A stretch of DNA of 40,827 nucleotides from Candidatus Obscuribacterales bacterium (GCA_021732565.1 JAKFUT010000044.1:1-40827); one strand, 5' to 3'; positions 3,456-18,394 are shown, counted from the first letter of the stretch. Notes: a model not told the origin generated them from the letters alone. Made by a program: numbers and translations.

Positions 3456-4655
3456 TTAGTTTCTTCGCTGGCCGTCTGCAAGACTTTGACAGTACTGTCT
3501 TGCTTCACCATGGTCGATGCGTTTGACAATTAACGGGAAATCAAGTTCTCGTTTTGCGTCGAATTTAATTTTACCAACAAGCCCTTCTTGCGAAGACAGC
3601 CCGGCCAGTGATTCTCGCAGACTCGTCTTCGTTGTGCTGCTTTCTTTTGCGGCCGCTTGCACTAGCTTGAGGGTATCGTAAGCAAACGCACCTACGAAGC
3701 AAGGTTTTGAGTGATATTTGGTCTCGTAGCTCTTCACGAAAGAACTCTTGACCGGGTCAGTTGAGTTAGCCTGAAATGCCGTGTCCGGAAAATAGACTCC
3801 TTCATTCGCCGATTTGGTTTGCTCCATAAAATAAGGAATGGAGAGAGTTGAGACGGTCAGCACCGTGCCTTTATAACTTTGCTCTTTGAGCTGGCGAATT
3901 GCCGCAGCATATGCCGGACCAAAACCTGACACAAATACCGCATCCGGAGATTGAGCGGTCAATTTACTCAGTTGGCTGCGAACATCTTTGTCCATAATAC
4001 CAAAGGTCTCTGTTGCAGACACTTTCCCGCCGAGGCTCTCAAAGGTCTTTTTGAACTCATTGTTTGTTGCAACGCCAAATTCGTTGTTTATATAGAGAAT
4101 GGCTGCAGACTTGCGTTTTAATTCTTTCGCGGCCAAGCGTGCCATGCTCTCAGCCTGTTTCTCGGCATCAATGAAGACACGAAATACCCATTCGTTATCT
4201 TTCGTTATTCCAGGACCGGCAACAACTGTGCTAACAATGGGTACCATCTTTTGCTTCGCCATCGGTGCCAGATTGCACGTCACTACATCACCGGTGGAGA
4301 GAACAACAGGTACATTACTCATGGACAGTTTGTTAAAAGCCAGTATCGCATCCTTCGGACTGTCTTTACTGTCTTCATACAAAATCTCCACTCGCTTGCC
4401 GCCTATGCCCCCGGAATTATTTATGTCTTCGGCTGCAATGTCTAATGCATTTTTTACTTCTACTCCTAATGATGCTTGCGGCCCGGTCAAAAATACAATT
4501 GCGCCTACCTTATAGCTCTCCTGATCTGCGGCTATTCCCTTGGTTCCTTCGGCTACTTGCGAGCAGCCGAACAGAAAAAACGATATAGTTAACATCATTG
4601 CAGTGTACGGCGCGTAGCTATTTTTGCTCAATTGCTTAACCTCTATTTTTGTCAC
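3456..4655 (-). CDS. ABC transporter substrate-binding lipoprotein, branched-chain amino acid type
   Basis: This is a 399-residue Leu/Ile/Val-binding-type protein (type 1 periplasmic binding fold). The N-terminus has a hydrophobic segment ending in LFLFGC-like lipobox residues with Cys31, so it is probably anchored as a lipoprotein. The mature domain opens with VGAIVFLTGPQASLG and AAEDINNSGGIGGKRVEI, the family hallmark, and continues with the usual two-lobe pattern (YEDSKDSP, VFVSGFGPAYAAAIRQLKE). It starts with GTG at 4655; an internal ATG pair at ~4598 is an alternative that still keeps the lipobox. It lies 62 bp downstream of the ATPase gene on the same strand and is probably the last gene of the liv-like operon. 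The actual ligand (amino acid, amide, urea or other) cannot be assigned. Confidence 0.88.
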   Translation of the reverse strand: MTKIEVKQLSKNSYAPYTAMMLTISFFLFGCSQVAEGTKGIAADQESYKVGAIVFLTGPQASLGVEVKNALDIAAEDINNSGGIGGKRVEILYEDSKDSPKDAILAFNKLSMSNVPVVLSTGDVVTCNLAPMAKQKMVPIVSTVVAGPGITKDNEWVFRVFIDAEKQAESMARLAAKELKRKSAAILYINNEFGVATNNEFKKTFESLGGKVSATETFGIMDKDVRSQLSKLTAQSPDAVFVSGFGPAYAAAIRQLKEQSYKGTVLTVSTLSIPYFMEQTKSANEGVYFPDTAFQANSTDPVKSSFVKSYETKYHSKPCFVGAFAYDTLKLVQAAAKESSTTKTSLRESLAGLSSQEGLVGKIKFDAKRELDFPLIVKRIDHGEARQYCQSLADGQRRN

Positions 4656-4717
4656 TGCTGAGCCTGGTCCAAGTGTCAGTCCGGTGAAACCAGTCTATAT
4701 CCGTGGTGAAAGAAACG

Positions 4718-6310
4718 CTAACTGCCAGTCACAGTCGAAGGTATGGCAATGAGTATTCCCGCAAGATCTAACTTAGCCATGATCGTTTCTGTCAATTCTT
4801 CCACGCGTTTGGGATCAAGGGCAGAAAATGGTTCGTCTAGTAAACCTATTGTGAGGTGCCGATTGCCCAACACAGAATTGGTTAGAACCCGTTGACGTTC
4901 GCCGCCGCTCAAGTCGGACACTCGTTTCTTATGAAAACAGGAGAGCGATTCTGTGTCGCTGTTGTTGGCGATTTCCAGGCTTTCTTTAACTGTCAACGTT
5001 GCAAAGAAATTATCACGTGCCCGCAACAACGATAGTCCTGCCGATGATCTTTGCCATGGACGCATTTTATCCACTGGTCTATTGTTCACCAAAATTTTCC
5101 CGGATGATACAGGTAGCAAACCGGCAATCGCTTCCAGCAAAGTTGTCTTACCCCAGCCGTTTGGCGCGTGAAGAATAGCTATCTGTCCCCGCGCGATCTT
5201 AAATGACAAGCCTCTGATGCCGTCGTCGGCTATCTCTCCTATTACCAGGCGCCTACCACGATGCACTACTAAATCTTGGACCTCGAAAATTATATCCAAG
5301 TCTTGGACATGTGCCGGTGCTACTTGTGTTAACGTTGCACCGTTGACCAGTGGTAGATTAACCACCGCGCCAGCATCGCCGGCGAGTCGATCAATAATGT
5401 GTTGAAAGTCGGTATCGCACGATCGCTCTCTTCTAACATCTTCAGGACGCTCCGTGAATATTTTCCCCTCACGCAGTGTCCAGACTTTGGTCGCTATCTT
5501 CATGATGTGGGAGATATTGAAGATATGCTCAATAATGACAATGGTGATTTTGCCTGACGAAGACAAGCTTTCTAGCAGGCTCAATACTTCATGCATACCG
5601 CGAGCATCCAACCCGGATAGCGGTTCATCTAGAAAAAGTATTCGCGCACCCGACTGCACTGCTCTAGCTATTGCTACACGTTTAGATTGACCTAACGAGA
5701 GCTCGTCCGGAGACTTATTGCTTAGTTCCGCAATGCCTAGATCGGCGAGCACAAGCTGTGTCGCTTGCGAAATTGAACGTTCTTGTCGTCGCCATGCGTT
5801 TGGTTTGAGAAAGGCCCATAGGGGGTTCTCCCCGATTTGCTCCGGGCTGGCGACAGCAACATTATCGCTGAGATCTAATGACGGTAGCAGTCGCACATCT
5901 TGCCACATTCGGGCCACGCCTGCTTTCGCCAGGCGTTCAGGTGTAAAATGCTGAAACGGATTCAAGCTAGACCACCATTTCCGCGGAAAGCGAAAACTTT
6001 CGGTGCTCTGGTCAACTGCAATGTCTATTTCGCCGGCATCAGGCTCTAGATTACCTGTAAGAATGTTGATCAAGGTTGTCTTGCCAGCACCATTGTCGCC
6101 GCGAAGCAAAACAATCTCGCCTTGTTGGAGGCCTACCGACAAGTCATCTAGAACCACCTGACCGCCGTATGATTTAGTTAAGTTAGAAATGCTGAGTGCG
6201 GGGCGCGACTCGGCGGGAGCAACTTGGGCTACAGAAGTTTGATCTCCAGAGGCTCGCAATAGGTTTCTCTGGAGTCTTTGTGGGGTGTTGGTCGTCGTTG
6301 GTGCAATCAT
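4718..6310 (-). CDS. Fused two-domain ABC ATPase (LivG-LivF type)
   Basis: This cytoplasmic ATPase energises the LivH/LivM-type permease. In branched-chain amino acid systems LivG and LivF are normally separate proteins, and here they are one 530-residue chain. Domain 1 has Walker A GDNGAGKTT (71-79), a Q-loop Gln ~137, signature LSLGQ (204-208), Walker B ILFLDEP (224-230) and an H-loop His262. Domain 2 has a Walker A region APNGWGKTT (382-390, first Gly replaced by Ala), signature LSGGE (467-471) and Walker B LLDEP. It shows no obvious Q-loop Gln and no H-loop His, and ends abruptly after Walker B. I chose the ATG at 6310 (13 bp after the livM stop, GGGACAG upstream); an in-frame TTG at 6349 would overlap livM. 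Confidence 0.88.
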   Translation of the reverse strand: MIAPTTTNTPQRLQRNLLRASGDQTSVAQVAPAESRPALSISNLTKSYGGQVVLDDLSVGLQQGEIVLLRGDNGAGKTTLINILTGNLEPDAGEIDIAVDQSTESFRFPRKWWSSLNPFQHFTPERLAKAGVARMWQDVRLLPSLDLSDNVAVASPEQIGENPLWAFLKPNAWRRQERSISQATQLVLADLGIAELSNKSPDELSLGQSKRVAIARAVQSGARILFLDEPLSGLDARGMHEVLSLLESLSSSGKITIVIIEHIFNISHIMKIATKVWTLREGKIFTERPEDVRRERSCDTDFQHIIDRLAGDAGAVVNLPLVNGATLTQVAPAHVQDLDIIFEVQDLVVHRGRRLVIGEIADDGIRGLSFKIARGQIAILHAPNGWGKTTLLEAIAGLLPVSSGKILVNNRPVDKMRPWQRSSAGLSLLRARDNFFATLTVKESLEIANNSDTESLSCFHKKRVSDLSGGERQRVLTNSVLGNRHLTIGLLDEPFSALDPKRVEELTETIMAKLDLAGILIAIPSTVTGS

Positions 6311-6323
6311 TGAATCTGTCCCG

Positions 6324-7223
6324 TTAAGAAATGCGATATGACCCGGCAAGGCCCTGAGGTCTAAAATGCATCATCAATATGAGGATGAGTCCGTAGATCA
6401 GAAGCCTCAAATTTGAAGCAATCGTGTCAGGCATCGCACAAAACCTTAATAACTCAGGTATAGCAAGTAAGACAATTGCGCCGACAATCGGTCCGCGAAA
6501 GTTTCCGGTACCGCCGACTAGCACCATGCACAGTACCGCCATCGATTCGTCAAGCGAAGCAATAGTCGGATCGACATAGTTAACGTATGAAGCGTACAGT
6601 GCGCCACCAAATGCCGCCATTGCACACGAAATTGCGATCGCTTGGATCTTCGCCAATCGCACATTCTTTCCCATACCTCTGGTAACCAATTCGTCATCGC
6701 GCATGGATTGCAGCACACGTGACCAGGGAGAACGCAGAAGGACACGTGAGAGAAGCATGCAGACGATCAGTGCACCGAATGCTAACGCTGCGGTGCTCTC
6801 TATATCGGTTAACTGCATGCCGAAGAATGAGGGTTTCGGTATGTTCGTCAGACCAAAAGTGCCGTTGGTCAGATTCGACCAGGTGCCTGGTTCGCTGTTC
6901 GGGCTGGTCCAATTTTGAAAAAGGCTGAATAGCATTTGCTGTACGGCAAGTGAAATCAGTACGAAGGAATCACCGCGCAATCGCCATGCCGGCACCGATA
7001 TCGCCAAACTCATCAGCCCTGCAATCACCATTCCAAGCAGAGATGCGGGGATAAAGTCCATGCCCGATTTAGTTGTTGCCAGTGCATATGTGTAGCAGCC
7101 CACAGCGAAATAACTGGCCTGGGCCATGGTTAAAAGTCCGCAATAGCCGCTGACTATATTGAGGCTGGCAGCGACAATTCCATAGATACTCATGAAAATC
7201 ATGAGGTGCAAGGCGTAATTCAT
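6324..7223 (-). CDS. livM: Branched-chain amino acid type ABC permease, LivM family
   Basis: This is an inner-membrane permease subunit of about 300 residues with roughly eight to ten hydrophobic helices. Family features are visible: the N-terminal NIVSGYCGLLTMAQASYFAVG segment (loop with the conserved GxxS/A-LGQA-like pattern), GGTGNFRGPIVGAI in the cytoplasmic coupling region, and the C-terminal HFRPQGLAGS ending typical of LivM. The ATG at 7223 overlaps the TGA of livH in an ATGA arrangement and has GGAGGC upstream, indicating translational coupling. The frame runs upstream to 7337 inside livH, but those starts would encode an atypical N-terminus. It should pair with the LivH-type subunit and the fused ATPase. 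Substrate not assignable. Confidence 0.88.
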   Translation of the reverse strand: MNYALHLMIFMSIYGIVAASLNIVSGYCGLLTMAQASYFAVGCYTYALATTKSGMDFIPASLLGMVIAGLMSLAISVPAWRLRGDSFVLISLAVQQMLFSLFQNWTSPNSEPGTWSNLTNGTFGLTNIPKPSFFGMQLTDIESTAALAFGALIVCMLLSRVLLRSPWSRVLQSMRDDELVTRGMGKNVRLAKIQAIAISCAMAAFGGALYASYVNYVDPTIASLDESMAVLCMVLVGGTGNFRGPIVGAIVLLAIPELLRFCAMPDTIASNLRLLIYGLILILMMHFRPQGLAGSYRIS

Positions 7224-8089
7224 GAGGCTGCCTCCAATCGCATTCTGAAAGAGAGCATTCCCTCGGGACGAATCAACAATACCGCCGCCAATACTGCAAA
7301 TGTGAAAGCTTCTGCCCATTGCGCAGAGAACACCCATATCACCATTGCTCTTATTAAGCTTAGGCAGATGGCGCCAATGATTGGTCCATTGAATGACTTG
7401 CGCCCACCGATAATCACTCCGACAATGGCAAGCAAAACGGCAGTCAAGCCGCCGTGAGCATCGAAACCAATGTCGTAGGCTACCAGCAGTGAGCTAACGG
7501 AACAAAGTGCGCCCGAAGCGGCGAAGCTTGCAATGCGCATAACTGAGAGATTGTGTCCGCGCAGAACAAATTCAGTTGCATTGTCCGCCATTGCCCGAAA
7601 TCGGGTGCCGGCCTTGCTGCCATGCAAGACGACGAAGTACAACGTGAGGACCATAACCGATACTACTACGGAAATTTGTTGAGACTGCGTAAGAATGATG
7701 CCTGAAAAAGTGGAGACGGTATCGACACCGGTGCGCAGTACTTTTGTTTCATTTCCCCAGAAAATTGCCGCGCACTGTGATAACAGAATATAAACACCCA
7801 ATGAAGAGACCATGTGCGCTCCGGAGGATGCGCCTTTTGTGTCCAATGGACCATGATTGAACATCTCACAACCGATCGACAAAAGGGTGCCGCACAATAC
7901 AGCGACAAAAACTGCCGCTGGCACGGGTATCAGGTTTTGCAGGCATGCCCAAGCAACGAAAGGCACCAGCGTATAGATTCCCGCCAATGCAATGTAGAAG
8001 ACACGCGTGGGTACGTATACCACTGAAAATGCCGCAGCAAGTAGTGCCAGAGATAGTCCTGAAATAAGGCCATTAACGATGATCTGCAT
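7220..8089 (-). CDS. livH: Branched-chain amino acid type ABC permease, LivH family
   Basis: This 289-residue inner-membrane permease is the first gene of the minus-strand transporter operon. The start MQIIVNGLISGLSLALLAAAFSVVY is the classic LivH opening (Q-x-x-x-N-G-L-x-x-G). Further along are RAMADNATEFVLRGHNL (the conserved cytoplasmic region preceding the coupling helix) and GVIIGGRKSFNGPIIGA, the LivH equivalent of the GG-x3-GP-x-G coupling motif. About eight hydrophobic segments are visible and the length matches the family. Its stop overlaps the livM start by four bases. Upstream lies a 273-bp gap shared with the divergent second binding-protein gene. Confidence 0.88.
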   Translation of the reverse strand: MQIIVNGLISGLSLALLAAAFSVVYVPTRVFYIALAGIYTLVPFVAWACLQNLIPVPAAVFVAVLCGTLLSIGCEMFNHGPLDTKGASSGAHMVSSLGVYILLSQCAAIFWGNETKVLRTGVDTVSTFSGIILTQSQQISVVVSVMVLTLYFVVLHGSKAGTRFRAMADNATEFVLRGHNLSVMRIASFAASGALCSVSSLLVAYDIGFDAHGGLTAVLLAIVGVIIGGRKSFNGPIIGAICLSLIRAMVIWVFSAQWAEAFTFAVLAAVLLIRPEGMLSFRMRLEAAS

Positions 8090-8246
8090 TCAGCGTGGTA
8101 GCATCTGTCTAGACAAAAGGAGAGAAGCTCCTGGATTGTAAGGTAGACGGCACTTTTAGCCAACACGGTAATTCCCATAGTAAACCGGCTGAAGCAATAC
8201 TGCATTCAAATCCATGGACAAAATACGCTTACATTCAGGATTGTTC

Positions 8247-8271
8247 AGCTCTTTCCTCAAAAAGAGCAGGG
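8247..8271. repeat. Inverted repeat between divergent liv genes
   Basis: GCTCTTT and AAAGAGC face each other across about seven bases in the 273-bp gap between livH and the divergent binding-protein gene. It could be an operator or part of an untranslated leader. No T-run in either direction argues against a standard terminator. Confidence 0.3.
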
Positions 8272-8362
8272 CAAGAGCCTGCTCCAAATTCTTCTCACAG
8301 TTGCCAATCTACTCGGTCAATGTTTCAATTAACGCAGAATAGTACAACCGAGGCTTAACAAC

Positions 8363-9466
8363 ATGACCAGGGGATTAATTGGTTCACTCTGTGTATTGGT
8401 CGCATCGCTCTGCTTCAGTTTAATCTGCTTTGCAGTACCGGTTGTAAAAGTTGCAGGCAATTTGCCATTGACCGGGCCCATCGCAGCGTGGAGCGGCCAA
8501 TATCCGATTGGTTTCAAAATGGGAATTGAAGATTCTGCCAAGAAACTGGTATTTGCCCCCGGTAATTTTCAAATTGATTTTCAAGATAATGCAGGCAAGC
8601 CTGCTACTGCAATTACCGTTTTTCAGCGACAGAAGATGAATGATTTTGATGTTTATCTTTCAGGTACATCTGAAGCTGCCATTGCACTGGCGCCACAGGT
8701 ACAGTCCACTAAGGCGCCTCATTTTCTCATTGCATTCGATCCGTTTTTGACCAGGCAAGGAAAAAACAGATTGCGAATAATGCCGAACAGTAAGATCGAA
8801 GGTCCACTTTTCGTCAAATATGCAAAGATGAAAAATGCGAAGCGCGTTTTTATCATAAACCTGAATAGCGCCTACGCGAATTCTGAGTTTAACGATATCG
8901 TAGAACCTGAGCTGAAAAAAGCGGGCGTAGAGTTAGCACATGAACGATTCGATTTCTCAGCGCATGAGTTCAGAACAATCGCGTTGAAAGCGAAAGAATT
9001 TCACCCGGATCTCGTATATATTTGCGGCTATTCTACCCACCTCCGACCGCTTCTGCGCGACTTGCGGGCGACTGGAGTGACCAAGGAAGGAACCATCATG
9101 GCGGCGATGGACTTTGTCGATTTTCTGTACGATAACACTTCGAAGGATGAGTTGAAAGGCGTGGTCTTTGCGTGTCCGTTGTTCGAGGTAAATGGTGCTG
9201 TTAAGGGTGCCGATGAGTGGCGCGCTGATTATAATAGGAGATTTGGTAAATTACCGTCATATGTGGCGGCATATGCCTATGATACTGCAGGAATTTTAGG
9301 CAAATCGTATAGCAAATTCGGAAAGGTCGATATTGATTCACTGAGGAAATCAATGCCTTACGACGGTGTAACCGGCAACATAAATGTAGACAAAGATGGT
9401 GACATTGTTGCCACTATAACCTTAGCCAAGGTAGCAACGGACGGCAAGGTGGCTGAAGTCAAATAG
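8363..9466 (+). CDS. Second ABC transporter substrate-binding protein
   Basis: This is a 367-residue periplasmic binding protein of the Leu/Ile/Val type. Residues 1-24 form a signal peptide (hydrophobic core ending CFA) with no lipobox Cys at the cleavage site, so it should be soluble in the periplasm. The mature protein opens with VVKVAGNLPLTGPIAAWSGQ and continues with GIEDSAKK, a STSEAAIA-like ligand-pocket stretch and VAAYAYDTAGILGKSYSKFG, all typical of the fold. It is divergent from the livHM operon and similar in type to the binding protein at 3456 but clearly different in sequence. It may widen the substrate range of the same permease or act as a sensor subunit; both are inference. 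Confidence 0.85.
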   Translation: MTRGLIGSLCVLVASLCFSLICFAVPVVKVAGNLPLTGPIAAWSGQYPIGFKMGIEDSAKKLVFAPGNFQIDFQDNAGKPATAITVFQRQKMNDFDVYLSGTSEAAIALAPQVQSTKAPHFLIAFDPFLTRQGKNRLRIMPNSKIEGPLFVKYAKMKNAKRVFIINLNSAYANSEFNDIVEPELKKAGVELAHERFDFSAHEFRTIALKAKEFHPDLVYICGYSTHLRPLLRDLRATGVTKEGTIMAAMDFVDFLYDNTSKDELKGVVFACPLFEVNGAVKGADEWRADYNRRFGKLPSYVAAYAYDTAGILGKSYSKFGKVDIDSLRKSMPYDGVTGNINVDKDGDIVATITLAKVATDGKVAEVK

Positions 9467-10842: not shown

Positions 10843-10871
10843 TTTACGATTTATCGAACACGTTCTATAAT
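10843..10871 (+). promoter_or_regulatory. Sigma-70-type promoter of the desaturase operon
   Basis: A -35-like TTTACG (10843-10848) is followed after exactly 17 bases by a consensus -10 TATAAT (10866-10871). Transcription would start near 10878, about 38 bases before the ATG at 10916. The -10 hexamer lies in the spacer of a perfect palindrome. Confidence 0.7.
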
Positions 10872-10884
10872 ATGAACGTGTTCG
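10855..10884. promoter_or_regulatory. Palindromic operator overlapping the -10 box
   Basis: CGAACACGTTC (10855-10865) and its exact reverse complement GAACGTGTTCG (10874-10884) flank the 8-base spacer TATAATAT. Each arm also contains a near-palindrome GAAC-NN-GTTC, so the site could hold one or two repressor dimers. Bound protein would cover the -10 box and the start site. The natural candidate ligand is the TetR domain encoded by the second gene of the operon. Confidence 0.72.
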
Positions 10885-10915: not shown

Positions 10916-12730
10916 ATGTTCACCGATGCAAATAATAGCTGTCTGGCAGGCAACCAGGACTTGCTCAGCAAGATTGGCGAACTCAGTAAGGTGCCATATG
11001 AATCTGTGGGGCGGATTGCCAGAGACCTGGTATTTTGGGGGGCTGCTGCATGTTTGTCCTACCACCTGAGCCATCCGTTGGCTACAGTTGTTGCAGTTAT
11101 ATTTATTGGCGCTGTACCAATGCACGATCTCATGGTGCACGGGCACGAAGGGGTACACAGCCTCATTTCACGCCGGCGACCGGTCAATGAGTTTTTCAAT
11201 TGGTTTGTTCACATGGTTGTCGGTCTTTCCGGCTCAGCCTACAGAGCGTTTCACCTTGAGCACCACAAGAAAGCCCACTCATCACAAGACCCGGAAGTCG
11301 AGGCGCTTCAATTTATTCACAAAGACATTCCCGGGTGGACATATCTGTTTCTTCCTTTGTCTGCTTTTTTTGCGATAAACACCTATCCGCTGCGCCACCC
11401 TAATACATTTGCCAACGGCTGGTCCGTTGCCCGAGATCTGTTATTTGCAGCGATGGCGCATTTCGCAATTCTCTTCGTGATTGGAATGGAGAACTATCTG
11501 ACGTACGTGACACTGCCCATTGTCACAAGTCTGGCGCTAACCAATGCCTTAAGAACCATCTGTGAGCATCACAACGCAGTGGCAGGTGATCGATGGTTGG
11601 ACACCAGAACGATGAAAACAAGTAGCTTGCTTGAGTGGCTCTGGTCTAACGTCAACTATCACTTGGAACATCATCTCTTCTCCACTGTTCCCTATCACAA
11701 ACTGCCGGAACTGCACAAACTCTTAGCTGCGGAATATACTCAAAGAGGGGCCATCATCGACGAAGGCTATTTCTCGACCAGTGCGCGGCTGTTGGCTGAA
11801 CCTGATCATTATCGAGGCCAAAGTCTCAAGGATAAGCACACCGGCGACGAATACATGGTTAACACCACTAGCCTCGCTTTCAAAATGAAGGTTCTGTGGT
11901 TCAAGGACATTCTTGTTTGTAGACCTGCAAGGCAATATCTCTGGAATTTGTACTATGCGGGCGAGGCCTATGTAGAGTTGCATCCAGACGGCGTTTTCAT
12001 TCCGTTGTTGAAAGAACCGTTGTCCCGGTTGCTTCACAGACATCTTTCCGATGAGACGCGTCATGCCACTATCTTCAGAGCTTTGTTGGCGCAGGATCAA
12101 CTTGCACCAACGGTGCTGAAACAGGAAGAAGACCTTGGCTGGTACTTGCTCAATCATTTGGTGCCGGACATTGTGCAAAAAGCCCGAAATAGCACCACTA
12201 TGTTTTCAGACGAAGACACTATGCGCTACATGGCATTCCTTCACACTCTTGAGTTGCGCAGTGTTTCCGATCTCTACGCGCTGCTGACGGCTGCTCGCCA
12301 ATTGCACGAAGTCGAATTAGTAAACGGGCTTGAGACCATTCTCCCTGACGAACTATTTCATGCGGCATATACGCATAAAGCCGTATTGGATCTTGCTCCA
12401 AGTGCAGAACAGGCACGCAAACTGTTGAATGAGATGCGCAATAACGAATTAGTACACTACACAGTGGTTATAAAAGGAATGCTCGCTCGACTTGTTGAAC
12501 TGAATGCGACTCCAGAGCCGCTTCCGGGGATGCTGCGCTGGCGAGCAATGAGCATGCTTTGTCATGTGATGTCTCCGTTCCCTAAGTTGCCGCTTTACCG
12601 AAAAGTACCACATAAGATTGCACCTGACGAAAATCTTCGCAGATACGTGCCGCCAGAGCTGGTAAAGAACCGAAAGACACCGACCCTGGCAAATGCTGCC
12701 AGTTTGAACGAGGAACAACCAAATGCATAA
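10916..12730 (+). CDS. Membrane fatty acid desaturase fused to a ferritin-like diiron domain
   Basis: Residues ~30-270 form a membrane-bound desaturase/hydroxylase with its histidine boxes in order: HGHEGVH (75-81), HLEHHKKAH (113-121), EHH (217-219) and HLEHH (249-253), set between hydrophobic helices. These boxes bind a di-iron centre that uses O2 to insert double bonds or hydroxyls into acyl chains. After a ~50-residue linker, residues ~320-530 are all-helical and carry a second potential metal set: E350/E354, E380-x2-H383, E446 and E479-x2-H482 (plus H487), the ExxH pattern of ferritin-like diiron oxygenases. Typical desaturases stop near residue 300-350, so this is a fusion of two oxygen-activating modules. 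It is the first gene of the operon; its last codons overlap the next gene by 8 bp. Substrate unknown, probably an acyl chain. Confidence 0.85.
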   Translation: MFTDANNSCLAGNQDLLSKIGELSKVPYESVGRIARDLVFWGAAACLSYHLSHPLATVVAVIFIGAVPMHDLMVHGHEGVHSLISRRRPVNEFFNWFVHMVVGLSGSAYRAFHLEHHKKAHSSQDPEVEALQFIHKDIPGWTYLFLPLSAFFAINTYPLRHPNTFANGWSVARDLLFAAMAHFAILFVIGMENYLTYVTLPIVTSLALTNALRTICEHHNAVAGDRWLDTRTMKTSSLLEWLWSNVNYHLEHHLFSTVPYHKLPELHKLLAAEYTQRGAIIDEGYFSTSARLLAEPDHYRGQSLKDKHTGDEYMVNTTSLAFKMKVLWFKDILVCRPARQYLWNLYYAGEAYVELHPDGVFIPLLKEPLSRLLHRHLSDETRHATIFRALLAQDQLAPTVLKQEEDLGWYLLNHLVPDIVQKARNSTTMFSDEDTMRYMAFLHTLELRSVSDLYALLTAARQLHEVELVNGLETILPDELFHAAYTHKAVLDLAPSAEQARKLLNEMRNNELVHYTVVIKGMLARLVELNATPEPLPGMLRWRAMSMLCHVMSPFPKLPLYRKVPHKIAPDENLRRYVPPELVKNRKTPTLANAASLNEEQPNA

Positions 12731-14993
12731 CACCGCTACAGCTGAAAAAATTGTTGAAGCTGCCTCTGCATTATGGAGTGATAAAGGCTTCGAACAAGCG
12801 ACCATGAGAGAGCTGGCCAGACGGCTTGGTATGGGTGTCAGCTCGCTGTACTTTTACTTCAAATCAAAGGAAGAAATCGTACTGTTTCTGTATAAAAAAT
12901 TGAACAAGCAAGCTATAGATGAATTCAGAAGCTCAGACGAAGGTGAGAAGAATCTTGCGCTGAACCTTTCCCGATACATGAAAATTAAGTTGGCGATTCT
13001 TGGACCACATCGTAGTTGCCTTGTAGCATTAGTGCGGGAGACTGTTGATCCAAGCTCCAGATTGAGTCCGCTGAGTGCAGATTCCGATCTGACCCGCGAA
13101 ATGAATTTGGAACTGCTGGCAGACATCGTCGCACGGTCCGCCGCCGTCAATAAGAACCAGGTCGCAGACACAGCGAAGGCACTGTGGCTGGCCAACCTGG
13201 GTGTGCTCCTTTACTGGCTACATGACCGAAGCCCGGAGTACCGGAATACTTACACTCTGATTGAAAAGACCGCTAATATGGTGGGCTTTCTGCCTATGCT
13301 GAGCAAAATGCCTGGAGCCGAATCAACCTTTCGATTGTTCTCGGACCTTTTACAGCAATCGGGTGACGAAACATCGGTGACCTGCGCCACCACTGGTGGT
13401 GAATCTGCAATCCCTTCCAGGGAATTCGATGTCGTTGTAATCGGCGGCGGGCCCATTGGCATCGTGTATGCCTGCTTTCTGAAAGCCAACAGACCACGCA
13501 CGCGTGTACTTGTTCTTGAAAGACTGCCTGAGCCTGGTCACAAGATTGGCGAAAGCACTCTATCTGGATTCTGCCGCGCGATGCGCAGCCTCGGCATCCG
13601 AAAAGAAGCAATGCAATCCCTCTTTTATCCAAAGAATGGATTGGGCTTTTTCTGGGTGGATGAAGCTACCAAGCGCCTCACAGACGCTCCCGAGTACATA
13701 CTCGAAACCTTCGACGAAACTTATCAGGTTGAGCGTCGCGTATTGGATAGTTTGCTGATAGCTAATGCCCGACGTCTGGGTGTCGAAGTTGTTCAAGGTG
13801 CAGGCGTCGACCTCAAGCGTTCTTCCATCACCGCATCTGGTAGCATCATCAGCTACTCAATCGGGAAGAAGGAGTTTCGCGTACGGTGTTTTCTGACGGT
13901 GGATGCTACGGGCCCGGCAGGCATCTTGTCCCGTGAGTTTGGACTGTGGACGTCTGAAGGGCTCCCGTTTCAAACCAGCGCAGTATGGGGGTACTTTCAG
14001 GGAATTCGTCCCCTGGCGAGCTATACCGGATGGCGCCGACAGTCTCAATTCCCTCGCGATCAATACACCCAACATGTTTGTCTTCGTGAAGGATGGATGT
14101 GGTACATACCGGTGGTTTCATGGCAAGGTTCGCCCACGACCAATCTGTCGCGAGGATTAGACGCGTGTTTACGCTCCGCACGAGCAATGCCGACCAGGGA
14201 CAAATTAGCGGAGGAATTCGGTTGCCCGTCTACCGACATAGTAAGCGTCGGGTTGGTTGTTCGCAGTGATCGCGATGAGTGGATGAAGAATGATCCGCGC
14301 GAAGCCTTTGAACACTACATGCGCAAATATCCGGCCATGCGCCAGGTCCTCGACGGTGCCCATCAGATAGAAGATCCGTATGGCACGGGTCAAACCTTCA
14401 TGCAACGGCTCAGCTTCCGTGGCTATGCCAGGCGCGTTGCGGGCGATGGTTGGCTGCTTGTGGGCGATGCTGCGTTCTTCGTCGATCCGCTCATTTCACC
14501 AGGACTGACAGGTGGAACCGCCTGTGCATATCAAGCCGCGATGGAATCGATTAAAGCGTTGGAGCAAAACCGGTTCGGGCGTGAAATGTTCACCGATTAT
14601 GAGGCGTTCGTACACAAGCTCCATGAAGCGTTAGAGCGGGACAACCAGCTTGTATACATGTCTTTCAATCATCCCGAAACGCTCGCGCTTATTCAGCGCT
14701 TTCAGGAGATCGATGCGCGTCGCCAATTTATCGAGACGAAGTCCTCCGAATACTCAGTCGCTGATACTAATGTTTGGGGAATCTTGAACCCGGCCTATCT
14801 AGACTATCAAAAGAAAGCCTGGGAGATTATGAGGCAAAGTGAGATCGGCAACGCCGAGGTTTCCATAGATGAGCAGTCATCGAAGGACTACGACTCGGCT
14901 CTTAAAGAACTGCAATCGTTGCTTTATGAATACGTGGATAGCCATGTTGATCTGACACCATATGTTCGTGCCAACACCGCTGTGAGCAGATGA
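12723..14993 (+). CDS. TetR-type repressor fused to a flavin-dependent halogenase/monooxygenase
   Basis: The 756-residue frame is uninterrupted. Residues ~1-200 are a TetR-family regulator: the helix-turn-helix lies at ~25-50 (TMRELARRLGMGVSSLYFYF, then KSKEEI) followed by a helical ligand-binding-like region. Residues ~235-700 are an FAD enzyme: GGGPIG in the dinucleotide fold (241-246), GEST (276-279), a candidate catalytic Lys304 in FYPKNGLGFFW, the WxWxIP motif of flavin-dependent halogenases (WMWYIP, 458-463) and GDAAFFVDPL (581-590). The motif set fits a halogenase better than a generic hydroxylase. The gene overlaps the desaturase gene by 8 bp and the next ORF by 4 bp. Such enzymes need reduced flavin; no reductase gene is in the window. 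Fusion of repressor and enzyme is unusual. Confidence 0.85.
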   Translation: MHNTATAEKIVEAASALWSDKGFEQATMRELARRLGMGVSSLYFYFKSKEEIVLFLYKKLNKQAIDEFRSSDEGEKNLALNLSRYMKIKLAILGPHRSCLVALVRETVDPSSRLSPLSADSDLTREMNLELLADIVARSAAVNKNQVADTAKALWLANLGVLLYWLHDRSPEYRNTYTLIEKTANMVGFLPMLSKMPGAESTFRLFSDLLQQSGDETSVTCATTGGESAIPSREFDVVVIGGGPIGIVYACFLKANRPRTRVLVLERLPEPGHKIGESTLSGFCRAMRSLGIRKEAMQSLFYPKNGLGFFWVDEATKRLTDAPEYILETFDETYQVERRVLDSLLIANARRLGVEVVQGAGVDLKRSSITASGSIISYSIGKKEFRVRCFLTVDATGPAGILSREFGLWTSEGLPFQTSAVWGYFQGIRPLASYTGWRRQSQFPRDQYTQHVCLREGWMWYIPVVSWQGSPTTNLSRGLDACLRSARAMPTRDKLAEEFGCPSTDIVSVGLVVRSDRDEWMKNDPREAFEHYMRKYPAMRQVLDGAHQIEDPYGTGQTFMQRLSFRGYARRVAGDGWLLVGDAAFFVDPLISPGLTGGTACAYQAAMESIKALEQNRFGREMFTDYEAFVHKLHEALERDNQLVYMSFNHPETLALIQRFQEIDARRQFIETKSSEYSVADTNVWGILNPAYLDYQKKAWEIMRQSEIGNAEVSIDEQSSKDYDSALKELQSLLYEYVDSHVDLTPYVRANTAVSR

Positions 14994-15182: not shown

Positions 15183-16169
15183 GTGGCTAGGATATTGCGA
15201 AACTGTGGGTTATATAAGATGCCCGGGGATCTAAGAAATACAATCAAGCGCATCGCCGCCACGCTAACGGATGGCATGTTGCTCTCCGGACACCCGGATG
15301 TCTTGCCGATGGAACTTGATAGAGACTTCGACGAGATAGAAAAACTGCTGATTCTTGAACAGTGGCCGTTCTTACGCTCCGACCTGGACGTGTCGCACGC
15401 TCAGCCTGGTGGAGTGTCGCACGTGGCTCGCAAGGATGGAAAATTCGGAGGCTTTTTCATTACCCACGCGTTCGGCACCATTGGCTACCTGGACATGATG
15501 ATCGTTTCGCCCGATTTCCGAGGATCAAGCATAGCTCGTCCACTCTATTTCAGGACCCTGCATGAGCTGGCAAAGAATGGCATGCAGTCTTATGTTGCGC
15601 ACACCACAAATGACTCTGCAAGAGTTATTGGTTTGCTTGGATTTAGAAAGACGAAGACTACATTTACATTGATGGGTCTTGATCCACAAGCGGTTGACTC
15701 GTCATTAGCTGCGGCTGGTTCAGAATCGCAAGTCTGCCCGCTGGCAGCTCTCGATGAAGAACAGGTCATCTGCCTTGATGCGCGGATATTCGGTCAGCGC
15801 AGGGATTCGTGGATCAAAGCACTCATGTCTCAAGACTCGACGCTGGTATGGGGACTAAAGCGAGATGGAGTTCTCACCGCTGTGGCATGGTTACGCAGCA
15901 GACGTGATAATAGCTACTGCATTGATGGATGTTCTTCAACTAATCCAGAAGATCTGACTTTGCTTATCTGCTCACTTGTTTCCGCTCACAGGCATGTTCG
16001 ACTGGAATGCTTTGTTCGTACAGGCTCTTTCCTCCATGGGGTCTTGAGCGTTTTGGGTTTCGCAGTGCCAGAGTTCTTTCGGAAGATTGGTCCACTTATG
16101 GAATGGCGCAAGGGAAAGGTTGGCGTCGCTGGTACGGGAACAGAGGTTCAGTGCTTAATGTGGTTTTGA
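15183..16169 (+). CDS. GNAT-family acyltransferase with two GNAT-like halves
   Basis: Residues ~45-165 are a GNAT fold: strand-turn GYLDMMIVSPDFRGSSIARPLY contains the V-x-P-x-x-R/Q-G-x-G/S-x-A acyl-CoA pyrophosphate loop, followed by NDSARVIGLLGFRKT, the usual helix alpha4/strand beta7. The C-terminal half (~180-315) has a second, more diverged GNAT-like pattern ending in FRKIGPLMEW. Tandem GNATs of this layout transfer acyl groups from acyl-CoA to amines. The GTG at 15183 is taken as start; an ATG at 15219 is the alternative, and neither has a strong ribosome-binding site. It is inside the desaturase/halogenase operon, 8 bp before the antiporter gene, so the acyl donor or acceptor may be the product of those enzymes (inference). 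Confidence 0.75.
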   Translation: MARILRNCGLYKMPGDLRNTIKRIAATLTDGMLLSGHPDVLPMELDRDFDEIEKLLILEQWPFLRSDLDVSHAQPGGVSHVARKDGKFGGFFITHAFGTIGYLDMMIVSPDFRGSSIARPLYFRTLHELAKNGMQSYVAHTTNDSARVIGLLGFRKTKTTFTLMGLDPQAVDSSLAAAGSESQVCPLAALDEEQVICLDARIFGQRRDSWIKALMSQDSTLVWGLKRDGVLTAVAWLRSRRDNSYCIDGCSSTNPEDLTLLICSLVSAHRHVRLECFVRTGSFLHGVLSVLGFAVPEFFRKIGPLMEWRKGKVGVAGTGTEVQCLMWF

Positions 16170-16177
16170 TCATCGGG

Positions 16178-18394
16178 ATGGCAAAGCACATGATCCGCAA
16201 AGCAATACCAGTGTTTCTGACTGCCTGTGCACTGGTGTTAACTCAAAGTGCGGCGCTAGCCACAAACCAGGGCAATTCACTGAGCCATGATCAAATTCTC
16301 TTGATGATGGTTCAGATTGGTGTCCTTCTCCTTGCATCTTTTGTGACGGGCGAGATTATGCTCCGCATTGGACAGCCGCCGGTTATAGGACAGCTTCTGT
16401 CCGGAATTGTCTTAGGGCACTCGGTGTTCGGGAAGCTTTGTCCTGAGTTGAGTTCGATGATCTTTAGAGCAGATCCGATCCAATTTGATTCGCTGGGCGT
16501 TGTTTCGTGGCTCGGGGCGATTTTCCTGCTTATGCTCGCCGGAATGGAGATGGACTTAGATGTAATTCGCAAGCAGGGCCGACCGGTGGTGATGATAGCG
16601 TTAGCAGCCAGTATCATTCCGTTTGCGGTGGCCTTTGGCTGCGCCCTCTGCTTGCCTCAATCTCTTGTCGGGCCAACTAACAATGGCGTACTCACTGCGC
16701 TCTTCATCGCCACGTTATTTTCGATGTCTTCTGTTCCTGTTATTGCGAAAATTCTGGGCGAACTAAATCTTCTTCGCCGTGATGTCGGCCAAATAATTGT
16801 GGCGTCTGCGCTGGTTCACGATGGCGTGGGTTACATTTTGCTTGGGTTTGTGGCAGCGCTGATTCCGGGAGGATCTTCCGGTGCGGGCTCTTTGGCACCT
16901 TTAATGGCACCACTTGGTGTCATCTCATTCCTGGCTATTTTGTATTTCGCAAAAGAGCGTATCTATGACGGGTTTCGTCGGGTGGCCTACCGTGCTCGTA
17001 CCGATGATGCTTTGCTTACCATGGTGGCAGTTCTGGTAATGTTTGGTGCATCCGCTACTCAATATATTGGCATTCACGTGGTGGTAGGCGCGTTTGCCAT
17101 TGGTGTACTTCTGGGCCGGCTGCCGCTTATTCGGCGGCGGGTTACCGACCCGCTTAAGAACATCACCAATGCAGTGTTTGCGCCAATCTTTTTCGCGAGC
17201 GCGGGTCTGACTCTCGATTTCACAAGACTGGCAGATGCGCCGAATCTCGCCGTTCTTTGTGCCTTCGTCTTGGTGGCCTCAGCATCTAAAATAAGCGCAT
17301 GTCTGATCGGCGGAAAACTGTCCGGGTTAGACAGATGGGAATCTTTGTTCATTGGCGTGGGGACGAATGCCTTTGGCGCTGTCGGTATAGTGGTGGCGAT
17401 GGTGGGGCGTTCTCTCAACCTGATCGGCGACGATCTGGCTACCATCATTGTGGCCATGTCCATAATCAGTACCATTATTACACCATCGCTACTTAAACTG
17501 ATTGTATTGAAGCTGCCGGCCAAACCCACTGAACAAGAACGGTTACGCCAAGAGCATGAAAACCAACGGAGCATCATTGGCCAAATCGGGCGTATCCTGA
17601 TACCCGTAGATTCTGAAGAAACGATCTCAAGGCTGAGTCTAGTTCTAAGAGCTCTGGGGCGATCAATTCACGCAGATGCTACCGCGTTGCAAGTGATGCC
17701 GGGACAGCCGGGAAACAACCGGCCGGGAAGAACATTCTCTCCTGAGGTAATGAAGGGCTTTGGTCACATTAATCTGATCAGCCGCGTGTCCGACGCAGCT
17801 TCTCCCGAAGACGGTATTCTGGCGGAATTAGATCGGGGATACGATCTTGTTCTGCTCGATTCGCCCATGAATCAAGTGTCTCCCGTGCAAAATAACTGCA
17901 CCCGCAATTGCGTTTACAGCGAATTTGCGTTGAGTCCGTATTCGGTGCTGGTATACAGCTCGTTCTCCTCAACCGAGGTGGCTCCGCTGCGGGCGATGAG
18001 AAAAATATTCGTGCCGATTTCCGGAACTCTGAGCTCAATCACGGCGGCAGAGATTGCTGTTTTGATCGCGTTGTCGGAACAGGCAATGCTCACTATCGCC
18101 CATGTGTGTGAATCGGGCGAGGTTAGGGAAATATCTGCATTGGCACCACCTGAACTGCTCGACATCAAGGCGGTGATCGAAAAATTAGTCGATGGATGCG
18201 CAAGCCCGGGCGGTGAGGTGATGGAACATTCAATGCAATTGCACCAGACAATTATCAGGTTAGCCCAACAGGTCGACCCTGATCTGATCGTGGTCACTTC
18301 GCGGCCTCGGCTCGGTCAAAGGGCCTACCGCTCATCTTTGGTGCGGCGCATTGTCGATGCTGTGCCCGGTGCGGATCTGCTGATTTTAATGTGA
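16178..18394 (+). CDS. CPA2-type cation/proton antiporter with C-terminal USP-like domains
   Basis: This inner-membrane Na+(K+)/H+ exchanger has about 738 residues. An N-terminal signal-like helix (VFLTACALVLTQSAALA) is followed by ~12 transmembrane segments containing IGQPPVIGQLLSGIVLGHSVFG, a conserved CPA2 opening, and FSMSSVPVIAKILGELNLL followed by ALVHDGVGYILL in the ion-binding region. From ~residue 460 the protein is cytoplasmic, with two universal-stress-protein-like domains beginning RILIPVDSEET and KIFVPISGTLSS and a terminal VVTSRPRLGQ stretch near the nucleotide-binding position. The start at 16178 is 8 bp after the GNAT stop; frames extending to 16007 overlap the GNAT gene and are not used. 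As the last gene of the operon it may balance ions or export protons when membrane lipids are altered (inference). Confidence 0.88.
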   Translation: MAKHMIRKAIPVFLTACALVLTQSAALATNQGNSLSHDQILLMMVQIGVLLLASFVTGEIMLRIGQPPVIGQLLSGIVLGHSVFGKLCPELSSMIFRADPIQFDSLGVVSWLGAIFLLMLAGMEMDLDVIRKQGRPVVMIALAASIIPFAVAFGCALCLPQSLVGPTNNGVLTALFIATLFSMSSVPVIAKILGELNLLRRDVGQIIVASALVHDGVGYILLGFVAALIPGGSSGAGSLAPLMAPLGVISFLAILYFAKERIYDGFRRVAYRARTDDALLTMVAVLVMFGASATQYIGIHVVVGAFAIGVLLGRLPLIRRRVTDPLKNITNAVFAPIFFASAGLTLDFTRLADAPNLAVLCAFVLVASASKISACLIGGKLSGLDRWESLFIGVGTNAFGAVGIVVAMVGRSLNLIGDDLATIIVAMSIISTIITPSLLKLIVLKLPAKPTEQERLRQEHENQRSIIGQIGRILIPVDSEETISRLSLVLRALGRSIHADATALQVMPGQPGNNRPGRTFSPEVMKGFGHINLISRVSDAASPEDGILAELDRGYDLVLLDSPMNQVSPVQNNCTRNCVYSEFALSPYSVLVYSSFSSTEVAPLRAMRKIFVPISGTLSSITAAEIAVLIALSEQAMLTIAHVCESGEVREISALAPPELLDIKAVIEKLVDGCASPGGEVMEHSMQLHQTIIRLAQQVDPDLIVVTSRPRLGQRAYRSSLVRRIVDAVPGADLLILM

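Follow-up and report, generated by a model that had tools for sequence, protein, structure and literature searches.

The TetR-halogenase fusion is a 756 amino acid protein encoded on the plus strand (12723-14993) of a 40,827-nucleotide stretch of DNA from Candidatus Obscuribacterales bacterium (GCA_021732565.1 JAKFUT010000044.1:1-40827), which is referred to here as the window. It is the second gene of an operon that begins with a desaturase/diiron gene and probably ends with a gene for a GNAT-type acyltransferase. The N-terminal part of the protein is a TetR-family regulator and the C-terminal part a putative flavin-dependent halogenase (FDH), and judging from its sequence it is probably, at a rough probability of 0.72, a repressor of its own operon and an enzyme in one polypeptide. 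The gene is a single stop-free frame of 756 codons which from its ATG shares 8 nt (12723-12730) with the stop of the preceding gene, and the DNA across the suspected junction (13260-13470) contains no stop. Pfam recognises the N-terminal TetR helix-turn-helix (HTH) at residues 10-53 (TetR_N, PF00440; E 8.8e-15, 54.7 bits against a curated cut-off of 24), the ligand/dimerisation domain at residues 90-187 (TetR_C_23, PF17931; E 2.5e-14, 54 bits against a cut-off of 29.1) and Trp_halogenase with a best stretch at residues 323-466 (E 3.5e-14, above the curated cut-off). The TetR domain comprises residues 1-205 (12723-13337); it is modelled by AlphaFold2 with a confidence mostly above 80 and matches 3c07 chain B over 208 columns in Foldseek (TMt 0.84, rmsd 2.4). 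It is followed by a variable linker of 28 residues (206-233, 13338-13421), delimited by the alignment and by low predicted local distance difference test (pLDDT) values over residues 209-231, and by the FDH domain (residues 234-756, 13422-14993). A preliminary description of the window had proposed an in-frame fusion of TetR to a flavin adenine dinucleotide (FAD) enzyme, and the frame and the domain order both hold, with the small correction that the FDH domain starts near residue 234. An internal start that yields two proteins is unlikely because the junction DNA has no ATG in frame from codon 197 to the FAD domain, GTG codons being the starts by which it could still occur.

The operon is preceded by a near-consensus sigma-70-type promoter (TTTACG-17-TATAAT, 10843-10871 on the plus strand, a scan match at 10 of 12 positions) which carries two GAACRYGTTC sites, each palindromic at its GAAC and GTTC ends. 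Operator O1 (GAACACGTTC, 10856-10865) lies within the spacer between the -35 and -10 boxes and operator O2 (GAACGTGTTC, 10874-10883) just 3' of the -10 box, with TATAAT sitting between the two. The same layout is found in genome G388, a member of a different genus in the same family, where a fused homologue is encoded behind a TTGCAA-17-TATTAT promoter whose -10 box is flanked by GAACATGTTC, the counterpart of O1, and by a conserved GAACGTGTTC. The palindrome noticed earlier at 10855-10884 is thus real and resolves into two operators. Among 50 genomes of the family, close pairs of the motif (gap 6-11 nt) occur solely at the two fusion operons and a reversed-pattern control gives zero matches, while wider pairs (gap 30-52 nt) occur at four loci of stand-alone sister TetR proteins and in two tandem-repeat arrays, with the reversed control matching in one genome. 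Paired sites accompany 6/6 TetR loci of this clade versus 0/35 other TetR loci (Fisher 2e-7, a test which treats related loci as independent), the six being the two fusions and all four stand-alone sisters with upstream DNA; two further sister loci at contig edges (L018 and L024) are left out. The two fusions of the family are 79% identical in the HTH, 48% in the ligand domain and 66% in the FDH core. Since the paired operators are conserved and specific to this TetR clade, it is very likely that the fused domain has kept its DNA binding and acts as repressor of the operon of desaturase/diiron, fusion and GNAT genes, and the self-repression through this palindrome that was put forward in the preliminary description is in that respect very probable.

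The stand-alone members of the clade in the same family (L019, L028, L029 and L030) have paired GAACRYGTTC sites with a gap of 42-45 nt, or 52-55 bp from centre to centre, on what seem to be the two sides of a promoter. In genome G425 the pair stands at the head of a short series of genes that has the sister TetR gene downstream, as is the logic of the window operon too. The tandem repeats (G399:C201:7440-7539 and G407:C205:82560-82649) contain regularly spaced GAACRYGTTC motifs that are probably not operators. A long TetR frame in the same family (L088, 1212-2576 on the minus strand, genome G408) was considered as a further enzyme fusion and rejected; it encodes instead a 454 amino acid chain with two TetR units in a layout like that of Mce3R.

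The FAD half is probably a complete halogenase of the MalA type. Its best match among solved proteins is MalA', the fungal malbrancheamide FDH (PDB 5wgr-5wgz), both by sequence (phmmer, E 1.4e-46, about 26% identical) and by fold (Foldseek, E 2.6e-29, TMq 0.79), and the top 37 Foldseek matches are all halogenase structures, including that of FasV (8zop), a named halogenase. For the fold comparison the FDH domain was modelled apart with AlphaFold2 from 18 sequences (mean pLDDT 75.8), because the TetR part came out well and the FDH part poorly when the fusion was modelled as a whole. The motifs GxGxxG, WxWxIP and Fx.Px.Sx.G are hallmarks of FDHs, and WxWxIP is reported to suppress monooxygenation (PMC10377541, PMC12871659). 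All are found in the fusion: the FAD-binding motif as GGGPIG (residues 241-246), WxWxIP as WMWYIP (residues 458-463, 14094-14111), which is kept in the other fusions and reads WLWYIP in G388, and the tunnel motif as FVDPLISPG (residues 586-594, 14478-14504). K304 (codon 13632-13634), the candidate catalytic lysine, aligns by sequence with MalA' K108, which bears the chloramine adduct (PMC8461649), and is invariant in 18 homologues. D664 (codon 14712-14714) falls in the column of MalA' E494, which is fixed by the crystal entry of the E494D variant (5wgu), as this has D where 5wgv has E, and Asp is found here in every fused and cyanobacterial homologue. GGGPIG, GEST (residues 276-279), K304, WMWYIP and GDAAFFVDPL (from residue 581) had all been picked out before and are all present in the translation; only the FxxPxxSxG segment had gone unlisted. 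MalA' differs from the fusion in having no TetR domain, in having WVWVIR in place of the WxWxIP segment and in having Glu for Asp at position 494, and the sequence match stops at residue 530 of its 667.

The fused state recurs outside the window. The G388 homologue is 60% identical and has a desaturase gene before it and a GNAT gene after it, and a scan across genome contigs revealed, in a Rubripirellula metagenome-assembled genome (L001), a 759 amino acid protein with the same domain order, 50% identical over residues 8-754 and followed by the same GNAT gene. Cyanobacteria of the Pleurocapsales have the enzyme half only, as proteins of about 550 amino acids with 52-56% identity; these stand-alone halogenases (L002-L007) share the same motifs and a 54-56% identical FDH core. 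They lack the TetR part, and their genomes encode no GNAT relative. In the tree of TetR domains the fused ones group together, apart from their stand-alone relatives (support 98/98), and a single clade of fusions is neither supported nor contradicted by the tree of the enzyme. The simplest reading may be one fusion event followed by transfer, with loss or absence elsewhere. A search of plasmids for a close relative returned only distant FDHs with less than 30% identity over about half of the protein.

That two genes were joined by an assembly error or a frameshift can be dismissed with near certainty. The source assembly is fragmented (428 contigs) and 67% complete, which would be the ground for suspecting this, but two further, independent assemblies have the same junction at 50-60% identity, no stop interrupts the frame from end to end and the likeness to the other fusions extends over both sides of the linker. 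The domain order was thus found elsewhere when it was looked for, and homologues are not always two separate proteins. A role of the FAD half as monooxygenase or as maturase-type flavoenzyme like QhpG or LodB is improbable: NCBIfam gives sub-threshold matches to both of these and also to CmlS, whereas the nearest solved relatives in sequence and in fold are halogenases, with MalA' first, and WxWxIP, Fx.Px.Sx.G and the lysine are all there. It is more improbable still that the TetR part has become a relic or a dimerisation scaffold which no longer regulates. No segment is better conserved between the two fusions of the family than the HTH, and the operators that track the TetR clade lie exactly over the operon promoter, although a matching operator was not found at the Rubripirellula locus.

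A repressor and enzyme in one polypeptide remains the preferred reading, against which several points weigh. The fused state is rare, being found in 2/50 genomes of the family and in 1/397 genomes of the order of Rubripirellula. Fusion is not required for keeping the enzyme, because the Pleurocapsales hold it without the TetR part. No desaturase gene turned up in the Rubripirellula genome bin, and the association between operators and TetR clade was calculated as if related loci were independent. The recognition helix of the Rubripirellula fusion differs, and neither GAACRYGTTC nor a strong palindrome was found upstream of its gene, so operator binding is indicated for the family fusions and not for this one.

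It is proposed that the TetR parts dimerise and that each of the two GAACRYGTTC operators around the -10 box (10843-10883) is occupied by one dimer. The desaturase/diiron gene and the fusion would then go untranscribed, and probably the GNAT gene as well. The FDH half would take FADH2 from a reductase encoded elsewhere, and an electron-rich substrate would receive the oxidised halide by way of K304. A pathway substrate, a product or a lipid-like effector may fill the TetR pocket, or occupy the enzyme, upon which the protein would leave the DNA and the operon would be switched on, so that the amount of enzyme and the repression would both be set by one polypeptide. An effector in the TetR pocket would be the ordinary induction route. 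The identity of the effector is speculative, and so is any coupling of the catalytic state to DNA binding; that the operon makes a small halogenated product, possibly lipid- or amine-derived, is a guess. A signal from the enzyme half to the TetR half is possible, and the variable linker argues neither way. With only slightly less than an even chance, the TetR part represses and the FDH part catalyses without any such signal, the two being joined for co-production only and the effector acting on the TetR pocket alone; this is a sub-case of the preferred reading and disputes nothing but the coupling. The variability of the linker and its low model confidence are compatible with this uncoupled arrangement, as are the Pleurocapsales enzymes, which have the same motifs without TetR, and the full retention of the TetR ligand domain. 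At 50-60% identity the fusion has been kept in two phyla, which suggests some advantage; this counts against joining for co-production only and discriminates weakly. It is more doubtful that the protein is a TetR-family trigger enzyme in the strict sense, in which the occupancy of the halogenase active site or the flavin state would be passed to the TetR domain to gauge the supply of substrate and switch the operon.

Trigger enzymes such as PutA, BirA and NadR are enzyme and transcriptional regulator in one polypeptide, as the fusion may be; judged by sequence both of its domains are intact, and a predicted operator lies at its promoter. PutA has a ribbon-helix-helix DNA-binding domain and is a flavoenzyme of a different type. 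The DNA-binding module of the fusion is TetR and its enzyme half a putative biosynthetic halogenase, so the comparison with PutA that was drawn in the preliminary description is one of analogy and not of homology; it is plausible for the mode of working, and its redox version is unsupported. PutA is a proline dehydrogenase which represses its own put genes (PMC8249747). A parallel on the side of the DNA is KstR, a TetR autorepressor that binds as a dimer to TnnAACnnGTTnnA, at a position in its own promoter that overlaps the -10 box, and GAACGTGTTC fits the core of this dimer site (PMC1995591). KstR stands alone and regulates many lipid genes, whereas the fusion operon has two operators, 18 bp from centre to centre, and the proteins are weakly similar in the HTH only (NF033703, E 5e-5).

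The first gene of the operon (10916-12730 on the plus strand) encodes an N-terminal membrane fatty-acid-desaturase/hydroxylase domain (PF00487, E 5.6e-29). Its C-terminal half contains DETRH (379-383) and DELFH (478-482) and is probably a ferritin-like diiron domain, with a weak match to COQ7 (E 0.0057, below the cut-off); the protein also matches GntB weakly. The protein would combine two oxygenase-type domains in one chain and has no solved relative by sequence. The orthologue in G388 is 56% identical and occupies the same place, and in the cyanobacterial genomes only matches of 24-27% to the desaturase part were found. The probable third gene (15219-16169 on the plus strand, with a longer GTG start possible at 15183) encodes the GNAT-type acyltransferase (PF00583, E 3.5e-07); it follows the fusion in G388 (52% identity) and in Rubripirellula (43%), and no relative was found in the six cyanobacterial genomes. 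The order desaturase/diiron, fusion, GNAT is thus common to G388 and in part to Rubripirellula. On its 3' side the GNAT gene adjoins a fusion of a Na+/H+ exchanger with a universal stress protein domain (16007-18394), the longest frame of which overlaps the GNAT end, and beside the operon (3456-9466) lie genes for an ABC importer of the branched-chain amino acid type together with two Peripla_BP_6 binding proteins.

Natural-product genes are usually under the control of separate regulators. Here a single protein is very probably both a tailoring enzyme and a repressor, in hosts that are apparently uncultured, non-photosynthetic relatives of cyanobacteria. Among open-access titles and abstracts, searches for TetR fused to a halogenase, or acting as a trigger enzyme, gave nothing relevant, and the protein may represent a variant of the trigger-enzyme idea that has no precedent found in this literature, in which DNA binding falls to TetR and catalysis to a putative halogenase. 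The predicted operator makes self-repression directly testable. If the DNA-binding half does read the state of the enzyme, the fusion would be a natural biosensor for the substrates or products of halogenases, which would be useful in enzyme screening.

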